Both the position numbers and the translations under genes were made by a program. A stretch of DNA of 57,729 nt from an uncultured SAR116 cluster alpha proteobacterium (GTDB taxonomy: Bacteria > Pseudomonadota > Alphaproteobacteria > Puniceispirillales > Marisalimonadaceae): positions 1 through 57,729 of the forward strand of contig CACBDG010000014.1 in NCBI GenBank assembly GCA_902537945.1. The letters are read 5' to 3'. Each line of letters starts with the position of its first letter. Position 1 is the first letter of the stretch. Below, one piece after another: positions 13,929 through 27,033 of this stretch. Under the pieces are notes generated by a model, which had not been told where the DNA came from, searched no databases, and worked only from the letters and a program-made list of their open reading frames with translations.

Positions 13929-14018
13929 GGATGGGTGACTGAGCGGTTGAAAGTACCGGTCTTGAAAACCGGCGAAGGTGAAAGCCTTCCGTGGGTTCGA
14001 ATCCCACCCCATCCGCCA
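13929..14018 (+). tRNA. tRNA-Ser (anticodon UGA), with encoded CCA
   Basis: The acceptor stem GGATGGG (13929-13935) pairs with CCCATCC (14008-14014), followed by discriminator G and an encoded CCA. The anticodon arm CCGGT-CTTGAAA-ACCGG exposes TGA, which reads UCA codons. A long variable arm (GAAGGTGAAAGCCTTC) and the T arm GTGGG-TTCGAAT-CCCAC identify a class II serine tRNA. Its 3' end is the integration site of the mobile element that follows. Confidence 0.97.
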
Positions 14019-14021
14019 TAT
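14005..14021 (+). other. attL-type site at the tRNA-Ser 3' end
   Basis: The 17 bases CACCCCATCCGCCATAT, covering the last part of the T stem, the acceptor 3' strand and the CCA, recur exactly at 23741-23757. The integrase gene begins about 95 bases further on. This is the classic arrangement for a tyrosine integrase that uses a tRNA 3' end as attB. Near-identity continues beyond the 17 bases into the integrase gene in both copies. Confidence 0.9.
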
Positions 14022-14114: not shown

Positions 14115-15374
14115 TTGCTGTCCGATTCAACCTGCGGTAAAATTGTGGGACAAATTGTGGGACAGAAATTGCGAACTAAAAATAAGCTAACTCCATTAGC
14201 TTTAAAAAAATTAAAAGCGCCTGGTAAATACAGTGATGGTAATAACCTTTATCTTAAAATAGAAGATACAGGTTCACGTCGATGGATACTCAGATTAAGT
14301 GTTAATGGTAAAAGAAGAGATATGGGTCTTGGAAGTCTTTCTTTTGTGAATCTAAGTGATGCTAGAGATTTAGCATATCAATATAATAAACTCGCAAAAT
14401 CAGGAATTGACCCAATCCAGGAAAGATTAAAAGAAAAAGGATTATTAATTACCTTTAAAGAATGTGTATACAAAGTTTATGCACTTAATAAACCTACATG
14501 GAAAACTGAATTAATTGGAAGACAATGGATTAACTCTTTCGAGCATCACGTATTCCCATGTATAGGGCATTTGTCCATATCGCAAATTCGTTCAGTCGAT
14601 ATTATGAATGTGCTTACACCTTTATGGAATATTAAACATGATACTGCAAAGAAATTAAAACAACGATTAAGAGTCGTTTTTAAGTGGTGTAGAGCTAAAG
14701 GGTACTTTTATGGTGATGATCCAGTAGAACTTGCTGAAATGGCTCTGCCAAGGGTAAAAATAAGTAAAAAACACTTTAACTCCCTTCCCTATGATCAATT
14801 ACCAGATTTTATAAATAAACTTAGAAACTCATATATTAGCTTAAGAAATCAACTAGCAATAGAATTTACAATATTAACAGCTTGTAGAACAAGTGAAGTA
14901 TTAAAATCAAAATGGAATGAGATAGATTTTAATAATAAAATATGGATTATTCCTGAAGACCGTATGAAAGCACACAGAGAACATCATGTTCCTCTTTCAG
15001 ATAGATCTATCTTGATACTTCAAGAAATGTTTAAAATTAAGTCTGATAGTGATTTAATTTTTCCAAGTGAAGTAAATAATCACAAACCTTTATCAAATAA
15101 TACAATGTTATTTGCTATTCAAAAGAACATGAACCTCAAGGCTACAATACATGGCATGAGAGCGTCATTTAAGAATTGGGCATCAGAAACAACTAATTTT
15201 CCAAATGAGGTATCAGAAATGGCTCTTGCTCATTCTATACATAATAAAGTAGAAGCAGCTTATAGAAGAGGTAATTTATTGGAAAAAAGAAGATTACTTA
15301 TGCAATGTTGGTCAGATTATCTCAACAAAGCAAAACCAGAAATTATTAAACTGTATCAGAGTATGGATAGATAA
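14115..15374 (+). CDS. int: Tyrosine-type site-specific integrase (P4-like, DUF4102 N-terminus)
   Basis: This is a recombinase of the P4/DUF4102 group that inserts elements into tRNA genes. The N-terminal arm-binding domain reads 'LKAPGKYSDGNNLYLKIED'. The catalytic set is complete: Arg258 (TACRTSEVL), His346-x-x-Arg349 (IHGMR), His373 and the nucleophile Tyr383 (numbering from the TTG at 14115). The start is uncertain: TTG 14115, GTG 14145, GTG 14157 and TTG 14169 are all in frame, and the first codons overlap the repeated 12-bp sites. It is directly downstream of the tRNA att site and just ahead of the AlpA-like gene. Confidence 0.95.
   Translation: MLSDSTCGKIVGQIVGQKLRTKNKLTPLALKKLKAPGKYSDGNNLYLKIEDTGSRRWILRLSVNGKRRDMGLGSLSFVNLSDARDLAYQYNKLAKSGIDPIQERLKEKGLLITFKECVYKVYALNKPTWKTELIGRQWINSFEHHVFPCIGHLSISQIRSVDIMNVLTPLWNIKHDTAKKLKQRLRVVFKWCRAKGYFYGDDPVELAEMALPRVKISKKHFNSLPYDQLPDFINKLRNSYISLRNQLAIEFTILTACRTSEVLKSKWNEIDFNNKIWIIPEDRMKAHREHHVPLSDRSILILQEMFKIKSDSDLIFPSEVNNHKPLSNNTMLFAIQKNMNLKATIHGMRASFKNWASETTNFPNEVSEMALAHSIHNKVEAAYRRGNLLEKRRLLMQCWSDYLNKAKPEIIKLYQSMDR
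14143..14162 (+). repeat. Direct repeats, possible integrase arm-type sites (left end)
   Basis: TTGTGGGACAAATTGTGGGA is a 12-base unit repeated in tandem, at the start of the integrase gene. The same 20 bases occur exactly at 23659-23678, near the right end of element 1, and a three-unit variant lies at 23880-23913. Presence at both ends of the element suggests recombinase accessory (arm) sites. The alternative is that the left copies are only codons for an 'IVGQ' repeat. Confidence 0.6.
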
Positions 15375-15375
15375 A

Positions 15376-15606
15376 ATGAAACATAATATATCTCCTAGAT
15401 TTTTAAGGTTAAAACATATTATTGGAGACTATAAAGTTACCCCACCTATTCAAGCTATTATACCTATTTCAAAAACAACTTGGTGGGATGGGGTTAAAAA
15501 AGGTAAATATCCAAAACCTTTTAAAATAGGAAGTAACACCACTGTATGGAGATCTGATGAAATCCAGAAGTTAGTAGATAAACTTTGTAATGATAATAAC
15601 AATTAA
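15376..15606 (+). CDS. AlpA-like DNA-binding regulator/excisionase
   Basis: The 76-residue protein fits the AlpA/MerR-like helix-turn-helix family: 'IPISKTTWWDGVKKGKYPKPFKIGSNTTVWRSDEIQ' is the family pattern, in which a short helix pair reads DNA and the 'VWRSDEI' end closes the fold. AlpA proteins act as regulators or directionality factors for P4-like integrases. It begins one base after the integrase stop, so both are likely made from one mRNA and both serve insertion and excision of this element. Confidence 0.85.
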   Translation: MKHNISPRFLRLKHIIGDYKVTPPIQAIIPISKTTWWDGVKKGKYPKPFKIGSNTTVWRSDEIQKLVDKLCNDNNN

Positions 15607-16051: not shown

Positions 16052-16765
16052 ATGTTTAAAATAAATTATTGCGATTTGATCCTCGATGGTATTAAGGAAG
16101 GAGATCAAATTGGAGGCCCGTACCAATTAGCAAAAATATTTTCCAATAGCTTAGAGCTTAATAATGGATACATTGAAGATGATTTGAGAAAAAGATATTT
16201 AGATTGGTGGAAAGCAGATGCCTTTGATACTGGACCAACTTATGCAAGTGTTTTTAACAAAATTGAAAAAGGAATGGAACCTCAAGTAGCTGTAAAAAAA
16301 GTCCATGAAGAATTTGGATTTAATACAGCAGGTTGTGGACCTGCTCATAGAGCCACTCCATTAGCTGGAATGTTTAATATACCAACAGATCAACTTATTA
16401 CCTTAGCTAAAAAAGAGGCTAGAATTACACATTATGATGTAGATGCAGGAAATGGCTCAGCAATTGTAATCATGCTTTGCAGATATTTGTTGGAAGGTAA
16501 AAGTTATTACGATGCTCAAAATTTAGTATCTAACGATAAAGACTTAAAAGATAGTTGGATTAAATTACAGAAGGCTGAGTTAAAACCAGACGGATATATA
16601 TATAATGTTATATTTTCTGCATTACATTTTGTAAAAGAAGAAAAAACACTTGCAGATGCAATAAAGTTCTCTGGAAAAGCCAATTACTGTTCTATAATTT
16701 TTAGTGTACTCAAAAAGTGTATGACAATTAATTCTTATGAAAGGATGCAAGATGGCTATATCTAG
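16052..16765 (+). CDS. Divergent ADP-ribosylglycohydrolase-like protein, copy 1
   Basis: The 237-residue protein has the overall pattern of the ADP-ribosylglycohydrolase (DraG/ARH) fold: N-terminal 'GIKEGDQIGGPYQLAKI', 'RYLDWWKADAFDTGPTYASV', 'TAGCGPAHRATPLAGMF' and 'RITHYDVDAGNGSAIVIMLC'. It is shorter than most members. The usual metal-binding Asp motifs are absent: there is no T-D-D-T near the N-terminus, and the usual C-terminal G-G-D-T-D-T is replaced by 'FSGKANYC'. The same replacement is seen in copy 2 (24252-24919), so it is a property of the subfamily and not decay. It may bind ADP-ribose or a modified nucleotide without standard catalysis. The last 14 bases overlap the next gene. 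Confidence 0.72.
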   Translation: MFKINYCDLILDGIKEGDQIGGPYQLAKIFSNSLELNNGYIEDDLRKRYLDWWKADAFDTGPTYASVFNKIEKGMEPQVAVKKVHEEFGFNTAGCGPAHRATPLAGMFNIPTDQLITLAKKEARITHYDVDAGNGSAIVIMLCRYLLEGKSYYDAQNLVSNDKDLKDSWIKLQKAELKPDGYIYNVIFSALHFVKEEKTLADAIKFSGKANYCSIIFSVLKKCMTINSYERMQDGYI

Positions 16766-16940
16766 AATAAAAGACAATAATGGTTATGATTATGTCATTA
16801 CAAATATTGAGACTTTTTATCAACATATTCAAGATTATCACTCATCTGGCACATCCATTCATGAAGAAAACGGTCATTATTTTACAGTAGATGATGCTTT
16901 TCGATCTAAAATAAAAACCTTATACCAAAATCAAAGTTAA
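16752..16940 (+). CDS. Conserved 62-residue protein of unknown function, copy 1
   Basis: The start at 16752 is chosen because AAGG lies eight bases upstream and the length then equals that of the second copy (26121-26309). The conserved core of both is 'SGTSxHEENGHYFTVxDxFRSxI', with 'DYVI' near the start and 'FYQHIxDYH' in between. It is hydrophilic, without cysteines, signal or membrane segment. It is translationally coupled to the ADP-ribosylglycohydrolase-like gene by a 14-base overlap. Its stop shares the bases TTAA with the stop of the convergent 125-residue gene. No family recognised. Confidence 0.72.
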   Translation: MAISRIKDNNGYDYVITNIETFYQHIQDYHSSGTSIHEENGHYFTVDDAFRSKIKTLYQNQS

Positions 16941-17314
16941 TCTTTGCTTAACTTAATTATCTCTGCATTTTGATTTATTTTTCCGTTCCATCCAAACATC
17001 CGTAAATCGTCAATACTTATATGTTCTCCAATAAAGTATTGAGACAACATTTTAGGTACGTCATCTTCTTGACAATTATCTAATTCAATAGAGTATTCCC
17101 TTTGATCGAACTCATCATATTTTTCATATGTAATAAGCGACCATTTACGGGTTCCATTTTTTTTACCATGTCGTTTTAAGTAAAGTCTTGTGACTTCCTG
17201 GCACATAGCTGGACCTGTATATACAATTCCAAGATAAAATACTCTTTGCCTTGGTAAGGGAGATTCATATTCTAATGGAATACATACATTTCTTGGAAAT
17301 TCAATTATTGTCAT
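16937..17314 (-). CDS. Conserved 125-residue protein of unknown function, copy 1
   Basis: I take the ATG at 17314 because both copies align from 'MTIIEFPRN'/'MTVINFPRN', and it lies inside the end of the upstream 82-residue gene. Strongly shared segments are 'LPRQRxFYLGIVYTGP', 'LYLKRHGKK', 'RKWSLITYxKYDEF' and 'FGWNG'. The two copies are roughly two thirds identical by eye, with changes mostly conservative, which suggests selection on the protein. No signal peptide or known motif. It converges on the 62-residue gene with a 4-base overlap, an arrangement kept in copy 2. Confidence 0.75.
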   Translation of the reverse strand: MTIIEFPRNVCIPLEYESPLPRQRVFYLGIVYTGPAMCQEVTRLYLKRHGKKNGTRKWSLITYEKYDEFDQREYSIELDNCQEDDVPKMLSQYFIGEHISIDDLRMFGWNGKINQNAEIIKLSKD

Positions 17315-17549
17315 GTTCATCACCTTTAATTTTCCAACCATTTTTGACGAGAATATTTACCAGTCTTTGATAAATTTCCTCCGTAGATGAATTTTGATTT
17401 GCTATAGGTTCTAAAAATAAATTTTTTTTATTCTCTGTTTTTTCTCTATGTTTGATATAATCTTGAAGGTTTTTTTTAGGTGAAGAAACGACAAATCCTT
17501 CTTTGAAGATAGGATCATCTTTTTTAGGTTTTTTTATAGTATATTTCAT
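17301..17549 (-). CDS. Conserved 82-residue protein of unknown function, copy 1
   Basis: A charged small protein starting 'MKYTIKKPKKDDPIF' and ending 'YQRLVNILVKNGWKIKGDE'. A GCGGAGG ribosome-binding site sits just upstream, at the end of a conserved leader. It is the first gene of a two-gene reverse-strand unit with the 125-residue protein (overlap about 14 bases). The second copy (26661-26912) is broken by a stop and frameshifts although its DNA is still very similar. The Lys-rich N-terminus could bind nucleic acid, but that is a guess. No family recognised. Confidence 0.68.
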   Translation of the reverse strand: MKYTIKKPKKDDPIFKEGFVVSSPKKNLQDYIKHREKTENKKNLFLEPIANQNSSTEEIYQRLVNILVKNGWKIKGDEHDNN

Positions 17550-17612
17550 TGAATCCTCCGCTTTAGTACTTTAGGCGGGATGCCAAGGCGTACAAGTTGG
17601 TAATTAAATGCC
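17550..17612 (-). promoter_or_regulatory. Conserved leader upstream of the 82-residue gene, copy 1
   Basis: About 63 bases directly upstream of the start are almost the same as 26913-26975 in element 2, with two differences by eye. On the transcribed strand the leader is locally GC-rich and contains CCGC...GCGGAGG, so a short hairpin could mask the ribosome-binding site. CCAA/UUGG and GGC/GCC pairs further up could form others. A TATATATA stretch just beyond could be the promoter -10 region. It may be a regulatory RNA leader or a DNA site of the element. Confidence 0.55.
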
Positions 17613-17677
17613 TTTTATATATATAATAGTTTTAGATCGTTATTTCAATAATCTGATTTTTGGAAAGCATAATTTTA

Positions 17678-19880: not shown

Positions 19881-20789
19881 TTGAATGTTTTAAGTCTTTT
19901 TGATGGAATAAGTGGTGCAATGTTATCACTTAAGGCTGCAGGTATAAAAGTTAACAATTATTATGCATCTGAGATTGATAGACATTGTTTAAAAGTTTCT
20001 CAACACAATTTTCCAAATATAATTCAGCTTGGAGATATAAAAGAAATTCGTAAAAACAAACTTCCTAAAATAGACTTATTAATTGGTGGTAGCCCATGTC
20101 AGGATTTAAGTAATGCCTTTAAAGGTAAAGGTTTACTTGGTGATAGATCTTCTCTTTTTTTTGAATTTATGAGACTCAAAAAAGAACTTAAACCACAGTA
20201 TTTTCTTTTAGAGAATGTTAAAAATAAATGGAAAAAGGAAATAGACAACCACATTGGTGAAGAGGGTGTAATAATAAATTCTGAATTCTTTACTGCGCAA
20301 TCGCGACCTAGATGCTATTGGTCAAATATACCAATAGAAATTCCAGATAAAATAAGTGACGTGAACATTAGAGACATTATGCAAGAGACTGAAGTAGATC
20401 AAAAATACTACTTCAAAGATAAACTAATGAGTGGGGTTGAGCACGCTAATTTAAGTAATTCTAAATCTGGGATAATAAAAGTTTTTGATATATCACGTGA
20501 TTTTTTAAAAGATAATGAGAGACAAAGAAGAGTATATTCTCCTAATGGTAAATCACCAACCCTGCTTGCAAGAAGTGACACTACAAAAATATTTTATAAA
20601 AATAAATTAAGAAAATTAACACCACTTGAATGTGAAAGACTTCAGGGTATTCCAGATCATTACACTTCAATAATTAGTGACACGCAGCGTTATAAATCAA
20701 TTGGAAATAGTTTCACAGTTCCGGTCATCTCTCATATATTAAGTGGAATAGGTAAAGTTAAAAAGAAACAACTAGGTTTGTTTGGATGA
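19881..20789 (+). CDS. DNA (cytosine-5) methyltransferase M1 of a restriction-modification system
   Basis: The 302-residue C5 methyltransferase has motif I 'VLSLFDGISGAMLSLKAAG', motif IV with the catalytic Cys73 in 'GGSPCQDLSNAF', motif VI 'LLENVKNKW', motif VIII 'AQSRPRCYWSNI' and motif X 'SIGNSFTVPVISHIL'. The short spacing and the 'SPCQDLS' form resemble phage-type enzymes. The start is a TTG preceded by AAGGT. It overlaps the second methyltransferase by ATGA. Two different C5 enzymes in a row usually mean a non-palindromic recognition site, one enzyme per strand. Confidence 0.93.
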   Translation: MNVLSLFDGISGAMLSLKAAGIKVNNYYASEIDRHCLKVSQHNFPNIIQLGDIKEIRKNKLPKIDLLIGGSPCQDLSNAFKGKGLLGDRSSLFFEFMRLKKELKPQYFLLENVKNKWKKEIDNHIGEEGVIINSEFFTAQSRPRCYWSNIPIEIPDKISDVNIRDIMQETEVDQKYYFKDKLMSGVEHANLSNSKSGIIKVFDISRDFLKDNERQRRVYSPNGKSPTLLARSDTTKIFYKNKLRKLTPLECERLQGIPDHYTSIISDTQRYKSIGNSFTVPVISHILSGIGKVKKKQLGLFG

Positions 20790-21751
20790 GATTTATTGAT
20801 CTTTTTTCTGGTATGGGTGGTTTTAGGCTAGCCTTAGAAAATGAAAATCTCGAATGTGTATTTAGTGCAGACAATGATAAGTATGCTTGTGAAACTTATA
20901 AATTAAATTTTAATGAATATCCTTTAATTGATATTACTAATATTGAAACAAAAGATATACCAGATCACGAAATACTCTGTGCGGGTTTCCCCTGTCAGCC
21001 ATTTAGTATAGGAGGATATAGAAAAGGTTTCGAAGATATTAGGGGTACTTTATTTTTTGAGATTGTTAAAATCTTAAAAGATAAAAGCCCAGAAATTTTT
21101 ATCTTGGAAAATGTTCAAGGATTAATAAATCATAATAAAGGAAAAACTTTTTCTACAATATTAGATTTTCTAGCAAATAGGTTGAATGGTCTAGAACATC
21201 CTAGCACTAACAAACATAACTTGGGGTATAATGTTTTTTGGAAAGTTCTCAATACTAAAGACTTTAATGTTCCACAAAACAGACCAAGAGTTTTTATTAT
21301 TGGTTTTAAAGATCCTGAAGTAAATTACGATTTTCCAACTGGTATTGAAAGAACATCAGGACTTGAAGATATATTAGATAAAGATCCTGAAATAAAAAGA
21401 ATTTCAGACCAATCATATGGATATATCCATGCTTTTCTTAAAGAACATAAAAAAAATAATTTAATTTCTCAGCTAAACTACTTAATAGCTTATGAGATAA
21501 GAAAATCAAGAGTTGCTTTTAGATTTGATAATAACTCTCCTTGCCTAACAACAAAGATGGGCACTGGTGGGAATAATGTTCCATATTTAGTCAATCAAAA
21601 TAGATTTTTCACACTTAAAGAAGGTTTAAAACTTCAAGGTTTCCCTGAAAATTTCAAACTGACAAATAATTATAGTGCCTCATTAAGGCAGATTGGTAAC
21701 TCTGTATCAGTGCCTGTGGTTAGGTCAATTGTTAGAAATATTTTAAATTAA
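20786..21751 (+). CDS. DNA (cytosine-5) methyltransferase M2 of a restriction-modification system
   Basis: The 321-residue C5 methyltransferase has motif I 'MRFIDLFSGMGGFRLALEN', catalytic Cys70 in 'AGFPCQPFSIGGYRKGF', motif VI 'FILENVQGL', motif VIII 'VPQNRPRVFIIGF' and motif X 'RQIGNSVSVPVVRSIV'. It is clearly of a different branch from M1, so the pair did not arise by a recent duplication. Its TAA shares the bases TTAA (21748-21751) with the stop of the convergent nuclease gene, so the four genes are tightly packed. Confidence 0.94.
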   Translation: MRFIDLFSGMGGFRLALENENLECVFSADNDKYACETYKLNFNEYPLIDITNIETKDIPDHEILCAGFPCQPFSIGGYRKGFEDIRGTLFFEIVKILKDKSPEIFILENVQGLINHNKGKTFSTILDFLANRLNGLEHPSTNKHNLGYNVFWKVLNTKDFNVPQNRPRVFIIGFKDPEVNYDFPTGIERTSGLEDILDKDPEIKRISDQSYGYIHAFLKEHKKNNLISQLNYLIAYEIRKSRVAFRFDNNSPCLTTKMGTGGNNVPYLVNQNRFFTLKEGLKLQGFPENFKLTNNYSASLRQIGNSVSVPVVRSIVRNILN

Positions 21752-22539
21752 ATTTTTGGCTTAATAACGAGTGCGTGTGTTTTTAATCTTCCACTACCTT
21801 GTGAAACATAAAAATTAGAATATTTAAATTTTTCAAGTTTATTATTTATAAAACTTAAAGAAGCACCAAAAGGTTCTTCAAAGTCGTTTTTACCAGTAAA
21901 AACAGTTTCTCTTATATTTTCATTTTCTAATATCATTCTTTTAACTTCCAATAAACTGTATTTACTTATCATTTCATATTTTTGTTTTTGAGATAGATCG
22001 TAATTAAACTCACCTAGAATTTTATTAAAATAGGAAAAGAAATTCTCCTCATTTATTTTCCAGAAATTTTCAATAATCTTTTTATTTTTAAAAAAATCAC
22101 TTTCTTTTTGAGTGTAGATCATCGCACCTGCACCAATATATTTATTATTAAACACTTTTAAGAATGATTTAGGCGTAAATTTATGTATTTGGTAATTTTT
22201 AGAGTCTGGTCTTTTAACTGAAATACCAGAGTTGTTAATTGTAAGAAAACTGTTGGTTAAATCAGACTTTATTTTTTTAATATCTTCTTCACTAAGATAA
22301 AAATCATTTGTTTGTAAAAAAGAATTAATATTATTTTTATATTCAACTAAAAAAGCATCTGATTTTGGTTTTACACTCAATTCTGAAATTTTTGAGAATT
22401 TGTTTTGTGTTACATGTACACAATAAATATTACCTCTTTTAGGAAAATTTTCCTGAATAAATTCATTATAAAAACCTCTATTAATATTTTTGACTAAATT
22501 AATTTCTTCTTCAGTACCTTGCTTTGTACCTTTATTCAT
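21748..22539 (-). CDS. Putative restriction endonuclease subunit B
   Basis: A 263-residue protein without clear overall family signature, placed directly against the two methyltransferases. It contains 'KPKSDAFLVEY' (Asp61) and later 'NNSGISVKRPDSKNYQIHKF' (Lys109), a spacing and sequence that fit the D...xVK core of a PD-(D/E)xK nuclease. Its ATG overlaps the TGA of the upstream subunit A gene (ATGA), so both are made together. With two partners of nearly equal length it could be half of a heterodimeric nuclease of the BbvCI type, each subunit cutting one strand. This is context-based. Confidence 0.65.
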   Translation of the reverse strand: MNKGTKQGTEEEINLVKNINRGFYNEFIQENFPKRGNIYCVHVTQNKFSKISELSVKPKSDAFLVEYKNNINSFLQTNDFYLSEEDIKKIKSDLTNSFLTINNSGISVKRPDSKNYQIHKFTPKSFLKVFNNKYIGAGAMIYTQKESDFFKNKKIIENFWKINEENFFSYFNKILGEFNYDLSQKQKYEMISKYSLLEVKRMILENENIRETVFTGKNDFEEPFGASLSFINNKLEKFKYSNFYVSQGSGRLKTHALVIKPKI

Positions 22540-23321
22540 AGAATGAATTCCTTTATATCTTTTGATTTAAACTGAATATCAAGTCTATGTTTTATAGTCT
22601 TATGAGTTATTTTTGGACAGGAAAAATCACATTTGTGAGATTCATGTCCATGATCTTGTCCTTTCAAACATGCCCAACAGTTTTGAAAAGTAAGTAGTCC
22701 TATACTATCTCCAGTTTCATTAAACTTTAAATGTTTAGTCAAAATATCATCAAATTTTATTAGATTCGGTATATTATTTTTGCCATCAAAATATATAAGA
22801 AATTCTGGTATATTCACCGAACCTACCCAAACTCTAAAAAAGATCTCTTTTTTAAAGGCACGTAATATTTCTAAATATTCATCATAATCTTTTATAAACA
22901 TTTTTTTGAATTGAGATTTGGGCATTCTGTCTTTAACTAATCCAGAATTATCTATCGTTCCGTCACACCAGTGAAACTTATTTATTAGATCTTTTTCTCG
23001 TTGATCAAGAATTCTTATACTATTTAAAAAAACTAAGAATGTTGATAATTTTTCTTGATGTACTGAATTTTGACTACCCCTTTTTACACTGGTATTTATA
23101 GTAAGATTATTTGTTTCAAATGTAAGATCATTTTTTTTTTCTATGCCGCTGCCTTCATTCTTATAGCAATATATAATTGAAGAAGATGTTAATTTTTCTC
23201 CAAACATTTTTTTAATTAGGTTTTGATAATCATTATTGAGTTGATTTAATTGTTTGTTATTTACAATATTTCTAACTACATCTTCTTGATCAAAACCCTT
23301 ATTTTGTCCAATTATTCTCAT
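22536..23321 (-). CDS. Putative restriction endonuclease subunit A
   Basis: A 261-residue protein with a likely PD-(D/E)xK-type core: 'NDLTFETNNLTINTSVKRG' (Asp65 and Lys80) followed by 'SQNSVHQEKL', a pattern I associate with restriction enzymes next to C5 methyltransferases. The C-terminal part has a probable zinc site: Cys215-x2-Cys218, His224/226 and Cys231-x3-Cys235 within 'CWACLKGQDHGHESHKC'. It is the first gene of the reverse-strand nuclease pair, convergent with the methyltransferases, which are transcribed from the opposite side. Whether it cuts DNA has not been shown. Confidence 0.7.
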   Translation of the reverse strand: MRIIGQNKGFDQEDVVRNIVNNKQLNQLNNDYQNLIKKMFGEKLTSSSIIYCYKNEGSGIEKKNDLTFETNNLTINTSVKRGSQNSVHQEKLSTFLVFLNSIRILDQREKDLINKFHWCDGTIDNSGLVKDRMPKSQFKKMFIKDYDEYLEILRAFKKEIFFRVWVGSVNIPEFLIYFDGKNNIPNLIKFDDILTKHLKFNETGDSIGLLTFQNCWACLKGQDHGHESHKCDFSCPKITHKTIKHRLDIQFKSKDIKEFIL

Positions 23322-23740: not shown

Positions 23741-23757
23741 CACCCCATCCGCCATAT
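23741..23757 (+). other. Second att core (junction of elements 1 and 2)
   Basis: CACCCCATCCGCCATAT is the same as the 3' end of tRNA-Ser at 14005-14021, but the rest of the tRNA is absent upstream. It is therefore the right end of element 1 and at the same time the left end of element 2. Similarity to the first copy continues for about 450 bases into the integrase gene. Confidence 0.9.
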
Positions 23758-24233: not shown

Positions 24234-24251
24234 GTAGGAAGAAATAATTTT

Positions 24252-24919
24252 ATGCATTATACCAAAATTTTAAATGGGATTAATGAAGGTGATCAAATTG
24301 GAGGACCATTTGATTTAGCATCTGTCTTGATAGATTCTATAAAAAAAATAACAATTTTAATAAATTAGATACCAGTAAGATGTACCTTCAGTGGTGGAAA
24401 AATGGAGCCTTTGATACTGGGCCCACTTACGCCAGTGTATTTACCAAAATTGAAAACGGAATGGAGTATGATGATGCTGTATTTGAAACTCATAAACAAT
24501 TTGACGGAAATACAGCAGGATGTGGCCCTGCTCACCGTGCATCCCCAATTGCAGGCTTTATGAACATTAAAACTAACAATTTAATTAAAGTGGCAAGGGA
24601 TGAAGCCAAAATTACTCATTATCATGATGATGCTGGTAATGGATCAGCTATTGTAATTATGTTGTGTAGATTTCTCTTGGAAGGCAAAAGCCTTGTTGAG
24701 GCTAAAGAACTTATATCTAAAGAAAACGAATTAAAAGAAAGTTGGGATAAAGTACAAAATGCCGAATTAAAGCCAGATGGTTATGTATTTAATGTTATTT
24801 ATTCAGCACTATATTTTATTAGAGCAAATAAATCTCTGAAAGATGCAATAAAATTTTCTGGCTCTGCTAATTATTGCTCTGTATTAGTTGGTGCTATATT
24901 AGCCTGTCTAACTAAATAA
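24252..24919 (+). pseudogene. Divergent ADP-ribosylglycohydrolase-like protein, copy 2, frameshifted
   Basis: Read from ATG 24252 the protein begins 'MHYTKILNGINEGDQIGG', matching copy 1, but the frame closes at 24366. Adding one A to the eight-A run at 24341-24348 restores 'KLDTSKMYLQWWKNGAFDTG' and an open frame to 24919. The rest keeps all subfamily blocks: 'TAGCGPAHRASPIAGFM', 'ITHYHDDAGNGSAIVIMLC' and 'FSGSANYCSVL'. The conserved remainder suggests a recent lesion, slippage in the A-run that may be reversible, or a read error. The 179-residue frame from ATG 24380 could also be translated alone but would lack the N-terminal GDQIGG block. Confidence 0.78.
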
Positions 24920-25020
24920 TTAATTTTAACATTCAATTATAAACTTATTTAACATTGTCTTTATTTAATCCTAAAGATAAAAAAACACATTATTGTAAAA
25001 GTTATTGTTATATTAAACTT

Positions 25021-25932
25021 ATGACAAAGATTATATTTAGTAGAAAAGGTTTTGACAGTAGTACTGGCGGAATGCCAAGTATGAAAAGAGGAGAAAACCT
25101 CATTAGCTTTCCTATACCTTCAAATAAGAATACCCTAACAACCTACAATAATCTTGGATTGGGTAAATATATAAAAGAGTTGTCAAATGGAAAAATTAGC
25201 CCAACAGATACTTGTCATTTTGATCCAAACTTAAATTACGGAGAGTTTGGACAGGTTGGAGCAGCCCAAACACATTTAGAAAATAATGAAGTAAATATTG
25301 GTGATCTTTTTTTATTTTGGGGGTGGTTTAGAGAGACAGTTATAATTGACAAAAAGACAGTTTTCTCAAAAGAGGATCCTGGACATTATAGATTTTTTGG
25401 ATGGCTTCAAATTGGTGAGATTATTCGTCTTGAAAAAGATCCAAGTTGGTATTTAAAAACAAAACCAAATTCCATGTCTCATCCTCATACTATTGGATAT
25501 TGGAAAGAAAATAACACTCTTTATTTGGCGAATGAAAAGTTAAATATTTTTGGTATAGATGGCTATTATGGTTTTGGTAAATTTAACGCATCTGATAAAA
25601 CAAATTTAAGTATTAATCCATCAATTAAAAAATCTCTTTGGAAGTGTCCTAAATGGTTAAATCCTGTTCATGGTGGATGTGGTATGACCTATCATAAAGA
25701 TAAAAAAAGATGGGGTAAAGATAGTGTTAACGTCGTTGGAAGAGGACAGGAATTTATTGCAAAACCAAAAAAAATAGAGGATTGTAAGAAATGGTTAAAA
25801 AATATTTTTAAAGATGCTAAAACAATTGAGGAAGTTAAAGAAGCTAAAAAACTTGCAGAGCAGATAAATAAAGAGGCTTTAAGAAGAGCGTATTTTAACA
25901 AAGACCAATGGATAAAAGACACATTTCATTAG
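25021..25932 (+). CDS. Nmad3 (nucleotide modification associated domain 3) protein
   Basis: With the ATG at 25021 the 303-residue protein begins 'MTKIIFSRKGFDSSTGGMPS', the typical Nmad3 start. Other family blocks follow in order: 'LISFPIPS', 'CHFDPNL', 'FGQVGAAQTHLENN', 'GDLFLFWGWFRETV', 'RFFGWLQIGEI' and 'VVGRGQEFIAKP'. A longer frame from 24955 adds a Cys-rich extension not expected in the family. Nmad domains were defined by computational analysis as associated with systems that modify bases in DNA or nucleotides; the biochemical activity is unknown. Here it lies between the ADP-ribosylglycohydrolase-like and 62-residue genes of element 2 and has no counterpart in element 1. Confidence 0.85.
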   Translation: MTKIIFSRKGFDSSTGGMPSMKRGENLISFPIPSNKNTLTTYNNLGLGKYIKELSNGKISPTDTCHFDPNLNYGEFGQVGAAQTHLENNEVNIGDLFLFWGWFRETVIIDKKTVFSKEDPGHYRFFGWLQIGEIIRLEKDPSWYLKTKPNSMSHPHTIGYWKENNTLYLANEKLNIFGIDGYYGFGKFNASDKTNLSINPSIKKSLWKCPKWLNPVHGGCGMTYHKDKKRWGKDSVNVVGRGQEFIAKPKKIEDCKKWLKNIFKDAKTIEEVKEAKKLAEQINKEALRRAYFNKDQWIKDTFH

Positions 25933-26120: not shown

Positions 26121-26309
26121 ATGAATACTGTATCAATTAAAGATGATAATAATGATGATTATGTTATCAAAGATCTAAAATCATTTTATCAGCATATATT
26201 AGATTATCATGCCTCTGGGACTTCCCTTCATGAGGAAAACGGTCATTATTTTACTGTAAATGATGAATTTAGATCTATGATTAATAATTTATATAAAGAC
26301 ATTAACTAA
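26121..26309 (+). CDS. Conserved 62-residue protein of unknown function, copy 2
   Basis: It aligns over its whole length with the protein at 16752-16940, with the core 'SGTSLHEENGHYFTVNDEFRS' changed at only a few positions. Unlike copy 1 it is not overlapped by the glycohydrolase-like gene; the Nmad3 gene and a 188-base spacer (25933-26120, no gene seen) lie upstream. Its stop overlaps the stop of the convergent 125-residue gene by four bases, as in copy 1. Confidence 0.72.
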   Translation: MNTVSIKDDNNDDYVIKDLKSFYQHILDYHASGTSLHEENGHYFTVNDEFRSMINNLYKDIN

Positions 26310-26683
26310 TCTTTTTTTAACTCAATGATTTTAGCGTTATTGAAAACATTTCCGTTCCAGCCAAATTTTCTTAAATCATTAAAAGTTATATGATTACCAA
26401 TATGATATTGACAATGCATATCTGGAACATCATCATCGTCAAAAATATCTAATTCTAGAGAATAGTTACGTTTAACAAACTCATCATACTTTCCATAGGT
26501 TATGAGCGACCACTTTCTAACGTTATTTTTCTTACCATGTCTTTTTAAATATAGATCTGTTAAGTCCTGACATAAAGGTGGACCTGTGTAAACTATACCT
26601 AAATAAAAAATACGCTGCCTTGGCAAGACTTCTTCATATTTGAAAGGAATACATAAATTTCTAGGAAAATTTATAACTGTCAT
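26306..26683 (-). CDS. Conserved 125-residue protein of unknown function, copy 2
   Basis: Homologue of 16937-17314, of equal length from 'MTVINFPRN', sharing 'LPRQRIFYLGIVYTGP', 'LYLKRHGKK', 'RKWSLITY' and 'FGWNG'. It remains open although the 82-residue gene before it is broken, so it may still be expressed and under selection. It begins inside the end of that broken gene. Confidence 0.75.
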   Translation of the reverse strand: MTVINFPRNLCIPFKYEEVLPRQRIFYLGIVYTGPPLCQDLTDLYLKRHGKKNNVRKWSLITYGKYDEFVKRNYSLELDIFDDDDVPDMHCQYHIGNHITFNDLRKFGWNGNVFNNAKIIELKKD

Positions 26684-26912
26684 TTTTATCACCCTTAATT
26701 TTCCAACCATTTTTGATAAGAATATTTATAAGCCTTTGATAAATTTCTTCTGTAGATGTATTTTGATCTGCAATAGGTTCTAAAAATAATTTTATTCTCT
26801 GTTTTTTCTCTATGTTTGATATAATCTTGAAGGTTTTTTTACGGGGAAAAACGACAAATCCTTCTTAGAAGATAGGATCATCTTTTTTAAGTTTTTTTAT
26901 GGTATATTTCAT
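26661..26912 (-). pseudogene. Remnant of the 82-residue gene, copy 2
   Basis: The DNA is very close to 17301-17549, but codon 16 is TAA where copy 1 has AAA, and a base is lost before a later four-base loss restores the frame ('FLEPIADQNTSTEEIYQRL'). The normal stop is also changed and the frame runs on to a TAG at 26661. So the protein is lost here, although the leader upstream is almost unchanged. Confidence 0.82.
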
Positions 26913-26975
26913 TGAAGCCTCCGCTTTACTACTTTAGGCGGGATGCCAAGGCGTACAAGTTGGTAATTAAATGCC
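26913..26975 (-). promoter_or_regulatory. Conserved leader, copy 2
   Basis: Nearly the same as 17550-17612, with two base differences by eye, including the CCGC...GCGGAGG arms that could hide the ribosome-binding site. It is kept although the gene behind it is broken, which suggests a function of its own, recent gene conversion, or service to the downstream 125-residue gene. Confidence 0.55.
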
Positions 26976-27033
26976 ACTGTTATACAAGATAATTTTAGAT
27001 CGTTATTTTAAGTATTTGCACTAGCTCATTCAT

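Follow-up and report, generated by a model that had tools for sequence, protein, structure and literature searches.

What do the genes at positions 16052–17612 of the window have in common, and how is their expression controlled? The window is a 57,729-nucleotide (nt) stretch of DNA from an uncultured alphaproteobacterium of the SAR116 cluster (contig CACBDG010000014.1). The locus encodes a short ADP-ribosylglycohydrolase-like (ADPRGH) protein, a 62-residue protein (p62) and, on the opposite strand behind a conserved leader, proteins of 82 and 125 residues (p82 and p125). The first-pass annotation had viewed these genes, which recur further downstream, as a duplicated four-gene module for defence, addiction or element maintenance. 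Comparison of the sequences across 136 genomes of the same order points elsewhere: the leader is probably a SAM-V-type riboswitch, and p82-p125 is probably a small-gene cassette, one among several that such switches govern on mobile islands.

Identity of the leader RNA

The leader occupies positions 17553–17622 of the minus strand, upstream of p82 (17301–17549, minus strand), whose stop overlaps the start of p125 (16937–17314, minus strand; 134 amino acids (aa) when read from an upstream ATG at 17341). It is strongly conserved. The first pass had recorded the conservation but had not recognized the kinship with SAM-V riboswitches. A cmscan search aligned the region with the full length of the Rfam SAM_V model (RF01826) at 33.4 bits, and no other family overlapped it at E-values up to 1. 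A model, R1, was derived from 27 leaders that were found by pattern in the loci of p125 relatives. R1 scored the leader of this copy (copy 1) at 94 bits and that of the second copy (copy 2; 26909–26981, minus strand) at 88.7 bits, both being among its 27 source leaders. Within the order R1 detected leaders in 63 of the 136 genomes compared to only 11 genomes with matches above the SAM_V gathering score. The Rfam threshold thus misses many such switches. The loci examined contained 110 leaders.

Leaders scoring <43 bits or lying at a contig start, as well as duplicates, were dropped to reach an alignment of 91 rows (90 distinct; 81 element-type and 10 metabolic leaders) that was made with MAFFT and was not fitted to a structure. 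Three leaders were taken out of it by hand: L052 because its stretch was misplaced, L164 as atypical, and L166, a bhmT leader, for want of a clean P3. The three-helix pseudoknot of SAM-V accounted for these leaders closely, with 98.9% of 1169 cells paired and 7 of the 13 helix pairs changed on both sides, compared to 27–57% pairing when the partners were slid by 1–3 columns. One pair in P1 is C-G in 51 leaders and U-A in 27, one in P2 is A-U in 57 and G-C in 28, and one in P3 uses GC, CG, UA and AU. The covariation score was 0.309 versus 0.137 for shuffled alignments and was reached by none of 500 shuffles, although such controls do not remove the relatedness of the leaders. Three other accounts of the leader were rejected. 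A DNA operator or an integron-type attC site does not fit three helices that covary as RNA and a sequence that runs into the ribosome site. Chance similarity to SAM-V is incompatible with the covariation. Recent spread of one identical element is contradicted by the 90 distinct leaders, the several gene families and the presence of leaders in further orders.

The aptamer overlaps the Shine-Dalgarno sequence: a start codon follows GGAG, GAGG or GGGG by 4–8 nt in 98 of 103 leaders, and in copy 1 the motif GCGGAG forms the 3′ end of the aptamer directly before the p82 ATG. Upstream, base composition in 66 dereplicated stretches was biased as in promoters at −35 and −12 relative to the aptamer, and TTGA-N15-19-TANNNT occurred in 8 of the 66 compared to a mean of 1.5 and a maximum of 5 in shuffles. 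The bias suggests that transcripts start at the aptamer. The candidate promoter of copy 1, TTGAAA/TATTATA (17621–17649, minus strand), which was picked by eye, would set the start there as well. Within arrays, the inner leaders do not seem, on visual inspection, to have a promoter. Overall the leaders share with the SAM-V riboswitch (RF01826), which heads metY, bhmT and mmuM/metH in marine bacteria, an H-type pseudoknot with P3, a U-rich third strand, the U20/U47/A48/A50 core and a Shine-Dalgarno sequence at the 3′ end.

Ligand site and metabolic leaders

In the published SAM-V crystal structure (PMC6061858), U47 and A50 hold S-adenosylmethionine (SAM) and the U20:A48.U9 triple surrounds the sulfonium. 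The published positions were mapped to alignment columns through the Rfam alignment, the mapping being our own. On this mapping none of the 81 element-type and 10 metabolic leaders of the alignment departs from U9, U10, U20, U47, A48 and A50. The metabolic type is chromosomal in the order and precedes metY at 11 loci and a bhmT-like gene at 4. These names were given by sequence, and we take the genes to encode an O-acetylhomoserine sulfhydrylase and a homocysteine methyltransferase, respectively. The Rfam SAM_V score lies between 27 and 44 bits, which is the range of the island leaders, in 13 of these 15 metY/bhmT leaders; those outside are L173 (79.8 bits) and L170, which is at a contig end (23.2 bits). 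A low Rfam score therefore is a trait of most SAR116 SAM-V leaders and not of the island leaders in particular.

Several observations weigh against the assignment. The copy 1 leader departs from the SAM-V riboswitch both in its score, which is lower than the gathering score of 41, and in carrying C in place of A18; the copy 2 leader gave no Rfam SAM_V match; and single leaders showed no excess stability in plain folding (z −0.33 to 1.01). The A18 of published SAM-V, which is the partner of A50, is C in 76 of the 81 element-type leaders (A in 4 and U in 1), U8 is replaced by C or G in 8 of the 81, and the one canonical metY leader of the order, which is outside the alignment (that of L173, in genome G009), keeps A18. 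The replacement of A18 by C, along with those of G11 by A and of positions 51/52 by G/C, clusters at the amino-acid end of the published pocket, and ligand switching is known from other riboswitch classes. It is nevertheless improbable that the SAR116 leaders use the SAM-V fold to sense a relative of SAM or another metabolite: C occupies position 18 also in 10 of 10 aligned metY/bhmT leaders, which share the invariant core, and their methionine genes point to SAM. As judged from conserved positions and gene context, SAM is the likeliest ligand of the leader.

In the published mechanism of the class, SAM binding closes the ribosome site. When SAM is ample the aptamer of p82-p125 would likewise fold and hide the ribosome site, holding expression off. 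A fall in SAM would allow translation of p82 to start, and p125 would be made through coupling of its overlapping start to p82. Tandem arrays would provide each cistron with its own switch.

Genes behind the leaders

Leaders were assigned to genes by BLAST at E 1e-3 with a minimum open reading frame (ORF) length of 30 aa, and the family names are our own. Eight mostly small gene families directly follow 82 of the 110 leaders: p82 (26), MTSN81 (13), p125 (12), HHVSL79 (12), HLKYC90 (6), LEPI52 (6), VEWMW165 (5) and an Mrr-like nuclease (2). A further 15 precede metY or bhmT, 6 precede other genes and 7 have no ORF behind them. The window-type leaders differ from the described SAM-V riboswitch by the presence of small island genes instead of methionine genes, the latter being found behind 15 of the 110 leaders of the order and behind none in the window. 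They also differ in often being tandem with one leader per cistron; twelve leader pairs are spaced by 329–334 nt, and each leader has its own gene.

The p125 family occupies 29 places in 23 of the 136 genomes (30 rows, a single broken gene accounting for two). At 28 of the 29 there is a leader no more than 550 nt upstream, the exception being a gene fragment, but this count is not an independent discovery as R1 and the first leader pattern both derive from p125 loci. A less dependent test is offered by genome G239 from another order: there too a leader and a short overlapping ORF come before a p125 relative (E 3e-15). Of 27 genomes in that order 5 have leaders, with arrays and a p82-like N-terminus. 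Genome G254 has two leaders, one before a relative of VEWMW165 (61% identity). Altogether, leaders precede relatives of these island genes in two other orders. In a class-wide sample of 385 genomes 16 matched, 12 of them outside the order of the window. It is very improbable that the leader exists to be bound by an island protein (p125, for example) and not to sense a metabolite, because the same RNA serves chromosomal metY and bhmT, and p125 occurs in 23 of the 136 genomes compared to 63 with leaders.

The first-pass description of the small genes as unfamiliar was borne out: in profile searches p62, p82 and p125 remained below every curated family cut-off, and none matched a family among the PADLOC models at E up to 1. 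A fair AlphaFold2 model of p125 (pLDDT 82.7, pTM 0.74) comprises two helices and a sheet built from four long strands, and a structure search with it returned no significant structural match. That profile and structure searches yielded no function for either p82 or p125 counts against the riboswitch-cassette reading. The p125 proteins of L043, L046 and L050 possess an extra C-terminal domain of ~80–90 residues, which is a separate ORF in L052.

SAM-V was described before methionine genes in the accessible part of an earlier account (PMC2704228). Its use as a switch of mobile-element genes was not found in the literature searched, which did not include the first SAM-V description or most subscription journals. 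The leader RNA itself is a variant form within an established class. Its deployment as the shared switch of diverse small island genes was not met in that literature.

The four-gene set

In the first-pass annotation the ADPRGH-like gene (16052–16765, plus strand), p62 (16752–16940, plus strand), p82 and p125 were proposed to form a unit. A neighborhood count, set beforehand as the test of that proposal, showed that the small genes lie apart at most places. ADPRGH, p62, p82 and p125 lie side by side at only 6 of the 29 p125 places, namely copy 1 of the window, L034, L036, L039, L041 and L042, the last of which is damaged. All four occur with other genes intervening at two further places (copy 2 and L035). 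The rows for ADPRGH were merged into 25 short-type and 10 canonical places, the split being our own. At 14 of the 25 short-type places an element-type leader is no further than 3.5 kb away, compared to none of the 10 canonical places. The ADPRGH-like and p62 genes are frequent yet optional neighbors of leader-p82-p125.

The ADPRGH-like protein of copy 1 exceeds the Pfam cut-off for ADP-ribosylglycohydrolases (PF03747, 66.5 versus 26.2 bits, profile positions 53–215). The TDDT and DxDT motifs are catalytic in these enzymes. Aligned to the canonical ADPRGH of L036, which carries both motifs, all seven short proteins lack the TDDT segment and show no Asp at the columns of DxDT, and therefore differ from PF03747/DraG enzymes despite the profile match. 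ADP-ribose chemistry, as postulated for the module, is doubtful on these grounds.

Duplication of the locus is real, but the copies are unequal: copy 1 (16052–17612) is intact and copy 2 is damaged. In copy 2 the ADPRGH-like gene (24249–24919, plus strand) is frame-broken near its start, p82 (26680–26911, minus strand) is frame-broken, and the leader has lost one P2 pair at columns 27:54 (G-G), whereas p62 (26121–26309, plus strand) and p125 (26306–26683, minus strand) are open. The order of ADPRGH, p62, p125 and leader is retained. The layouts are not identical, contrary to the first pass: an Nmad3 gene (24955–25932, plus strand; PF18754, 198.6 bits) separates ADPRGH from p62 in copy 2. The overlap of convergent stops that had been reported in both copies was verified, as those of p62 and p125 share 4 nt (16937–16940 and 26306–26309). 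The two genes also have stayed open while diverging, with ratios of nonsynonymous to synonymous substitution (dN/dS) of 0.10 for p62 and 0.15 for p125; the value for the ADPRGH part is 0.22. Values of 0.10–0.22 are not near 1 and indicate that the proteins are under purifying selection, with the qualification that dS between the copies is 1.3–2.3 and hence near saturation by the NG86 method that was used throughout. The promoter-leader-p82 segment is 89–90% identical between the elements (26834–27018 versus 17471–17655) compared to 71% for p125, and parts of the two copies therefore have different histories. The copies perhaps became mosaic through recombination. The breakage of both the p82 frame and one P2 pair agrees with joint decay of leader and genes in copy 2. 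Purifying selection on the frames and the proximity of short-type ADPRGH genes to leaders speak for a four-gene defence or addiction system based on ADP-ribose chemistry. With adjacency at just 6 of the 29 places, canonical motifs missing from seven of seven proteins and no PADLOC match for any of the four, such a system is very unlikely. A role in defence or addiction may still apply.

Islands, methylases and defence genes

The leaders that head small genes are associated with integrases. At 22 of 64 element-type loci there is a tyrosine integrase no more than 6 kb away, compared to 0 of 15 metabolic loci (Fisher p 0.008); some loci end at contig ends, and element-type leaders <39 bits were left out. 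Element-type leaders also are linked to DNA 5-methylcytosine (5mC) methylases. In the 136 genomes 9 of 31 methylase places, merged from 40 rows, are within 6.5 kb of such a leader compared to ~0.09 expected, a rough figure that assumes a genome size of 136 × 1.9 Mb. This count used 87 element-type leaders from 47 genomes, without the 15 metY/bhmT leaders and about ten weak or unclear ones. The associations are partial, which counts against the overall reading: in the stretches examined linkage was absent at 22 of the 31 methylase places and 42 of the 64 element-type loci, and L034 has neither an integrase nor a 5mC methylase nearby. Co-residence on islands explains the linkage to methylases and defence genes as well as functional coupling does.

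Should the leaders prove responsive to SAM, mobile islands would have co-opted a riboswitch class as a means of control, and the function of the gene families that it marks could be sought among the needs of a cell low in SAM. The distribution of the leaders suggests that mobile islands may sense the methyl-donor supply of the cell, and some leaders adjoin enzymes that spend SAM. With low confidence, p82 and p125 might act at SAM shortage in the conflict between restriction-modification, phage and island, for example as a SAM-independent backup or by curbing a restriction enzyme when its methylase is short of SAM; alternatively, SAM could serve as a general stress signal.

A safety valve in which p82 and p125 restrain a restriction enzyme once no SAM is left for the methylase draws on the type II restriction-modification genes beside leader modules. 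In the window (19881–23321) two DNA 5mC methyltransferases of element 1, which use SAM (19881–21751, plus strand; PF00145), adjoin two REase_II-like ORFs (21748–23321, minus strand; PADLOC REase_II, E 1.7e-25 and 4e-9), and an NgoPII-type enzyme adjoins the module in L035 and L036. The proposal is unlikely, as most leader loci have no PF00145 methylase within 6.5 kb (other methylase families were not searched) and the defence types beside the modules differ, with BREX genes in L152. It is equally doubtful that SAM loss caused by phage turns on SAM-independent island defences. In L125 and L148 the gene immediately behind the leader encodes an Mrr-like nuclease, and in L186 (genome G195) a leader precedes an SNF2 helicase gene close to the ZorD, DrmD and DpdE models, which speaks for such a trigger, but the nuclease follows only 2 of the 110 leaders of the order, and one phage contig itself carries a leader.

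That leader, on viral contig IMGVR_UViG_3300045135_001836 (L176:5907-6190), is of the SAM-V type and precedes a 74-aa ORF antisense to its neighbors; the contig also encodes what presumably is a terminase-like protein. A broader and tentative proposal, which we hold possible but would not expect, is that a SAM-sensing regulon is common to mobile islands of marine alphaproteobacteria and at least one of their phages; SAM-V switches, one on each cistron, would keep a varied set of small conflict proteins off until SAM drops. Were this so, SAM depletion through phage attack, methylase overload or sulfur starvation would serve as an alarm.

Riboswitches on phages and mobile elements are known, for example c-di-GMP-I riboswitches in prophages. 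The island leaders resemble these in placing mobile genes under a metabolite switch but differ in ligand class and in heading many small gene families, as a regulon, on integrated islands.

The integrated elements of the window

The proximity of the module to an integrase, as noted at first pass, reflects its location in an integrated element with an integrase, an AlpA-like gene, 17-bp repeats and a tRNA-Ser gene. Element 1 (~9.7 kb) is flanked by exact 17-bp repeats (two matches compared to 0.06 expected). The left att core (14005–14021, plus strand) is within tRNA-Ser (13929–14018), and the other (23741–23757, plus strand) divides element 1 from element 2. The tyrosine integrase of element 1 (14115–15374, plus strand) matches NF007246 (PRK09692.1) at 182 bits, below the cut-off of 434. 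The AlpA/excisionase-like protein (15376–15606, plus strand) matches PF05930 (E 8e-4; 19.6 bits, not reaching the cut-off of 21) and phrog_9834 (E 8e-4). Element 2 is a decaying element 3′ of element 1 in which the integrase persists only as a fragment. Phage-inducible chromosomal islands carry an integrase, AlpA and a small terminase. The element of the window is like them in its integrase and AlpA-like gene at a tRNA, and L036 has a small terminase (Terminase_2) gene; it differs in its restriction-modification cargo. Among the part of its ORFs that was searched, no terminase was seen.

Leaders also are present in another family of the class (L185, L187, L188, L194 and L198). The genes behind them we take to be OmpW-like, resembling outer-membrane proteins, and the L194 leader precedes a 427-residue ORF. 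In L204 and L210 (genome G523) the leader-headed gene presumably encodes a MoxR-like AAA ATPase. In two genomes (L147 and L149) the leader is degenerate, its ribosome site is mutated, and it lies ~40 nt before a gene that we assume to be fasciclin-like. Finally, a 165-aa protein (L202:1639-2136) is encoded beside the distant p125 of G239; it appears to resemble Csf3 of type IV CRISPR systems and adjoins what we take to be a RepA-like ATPase fragment.

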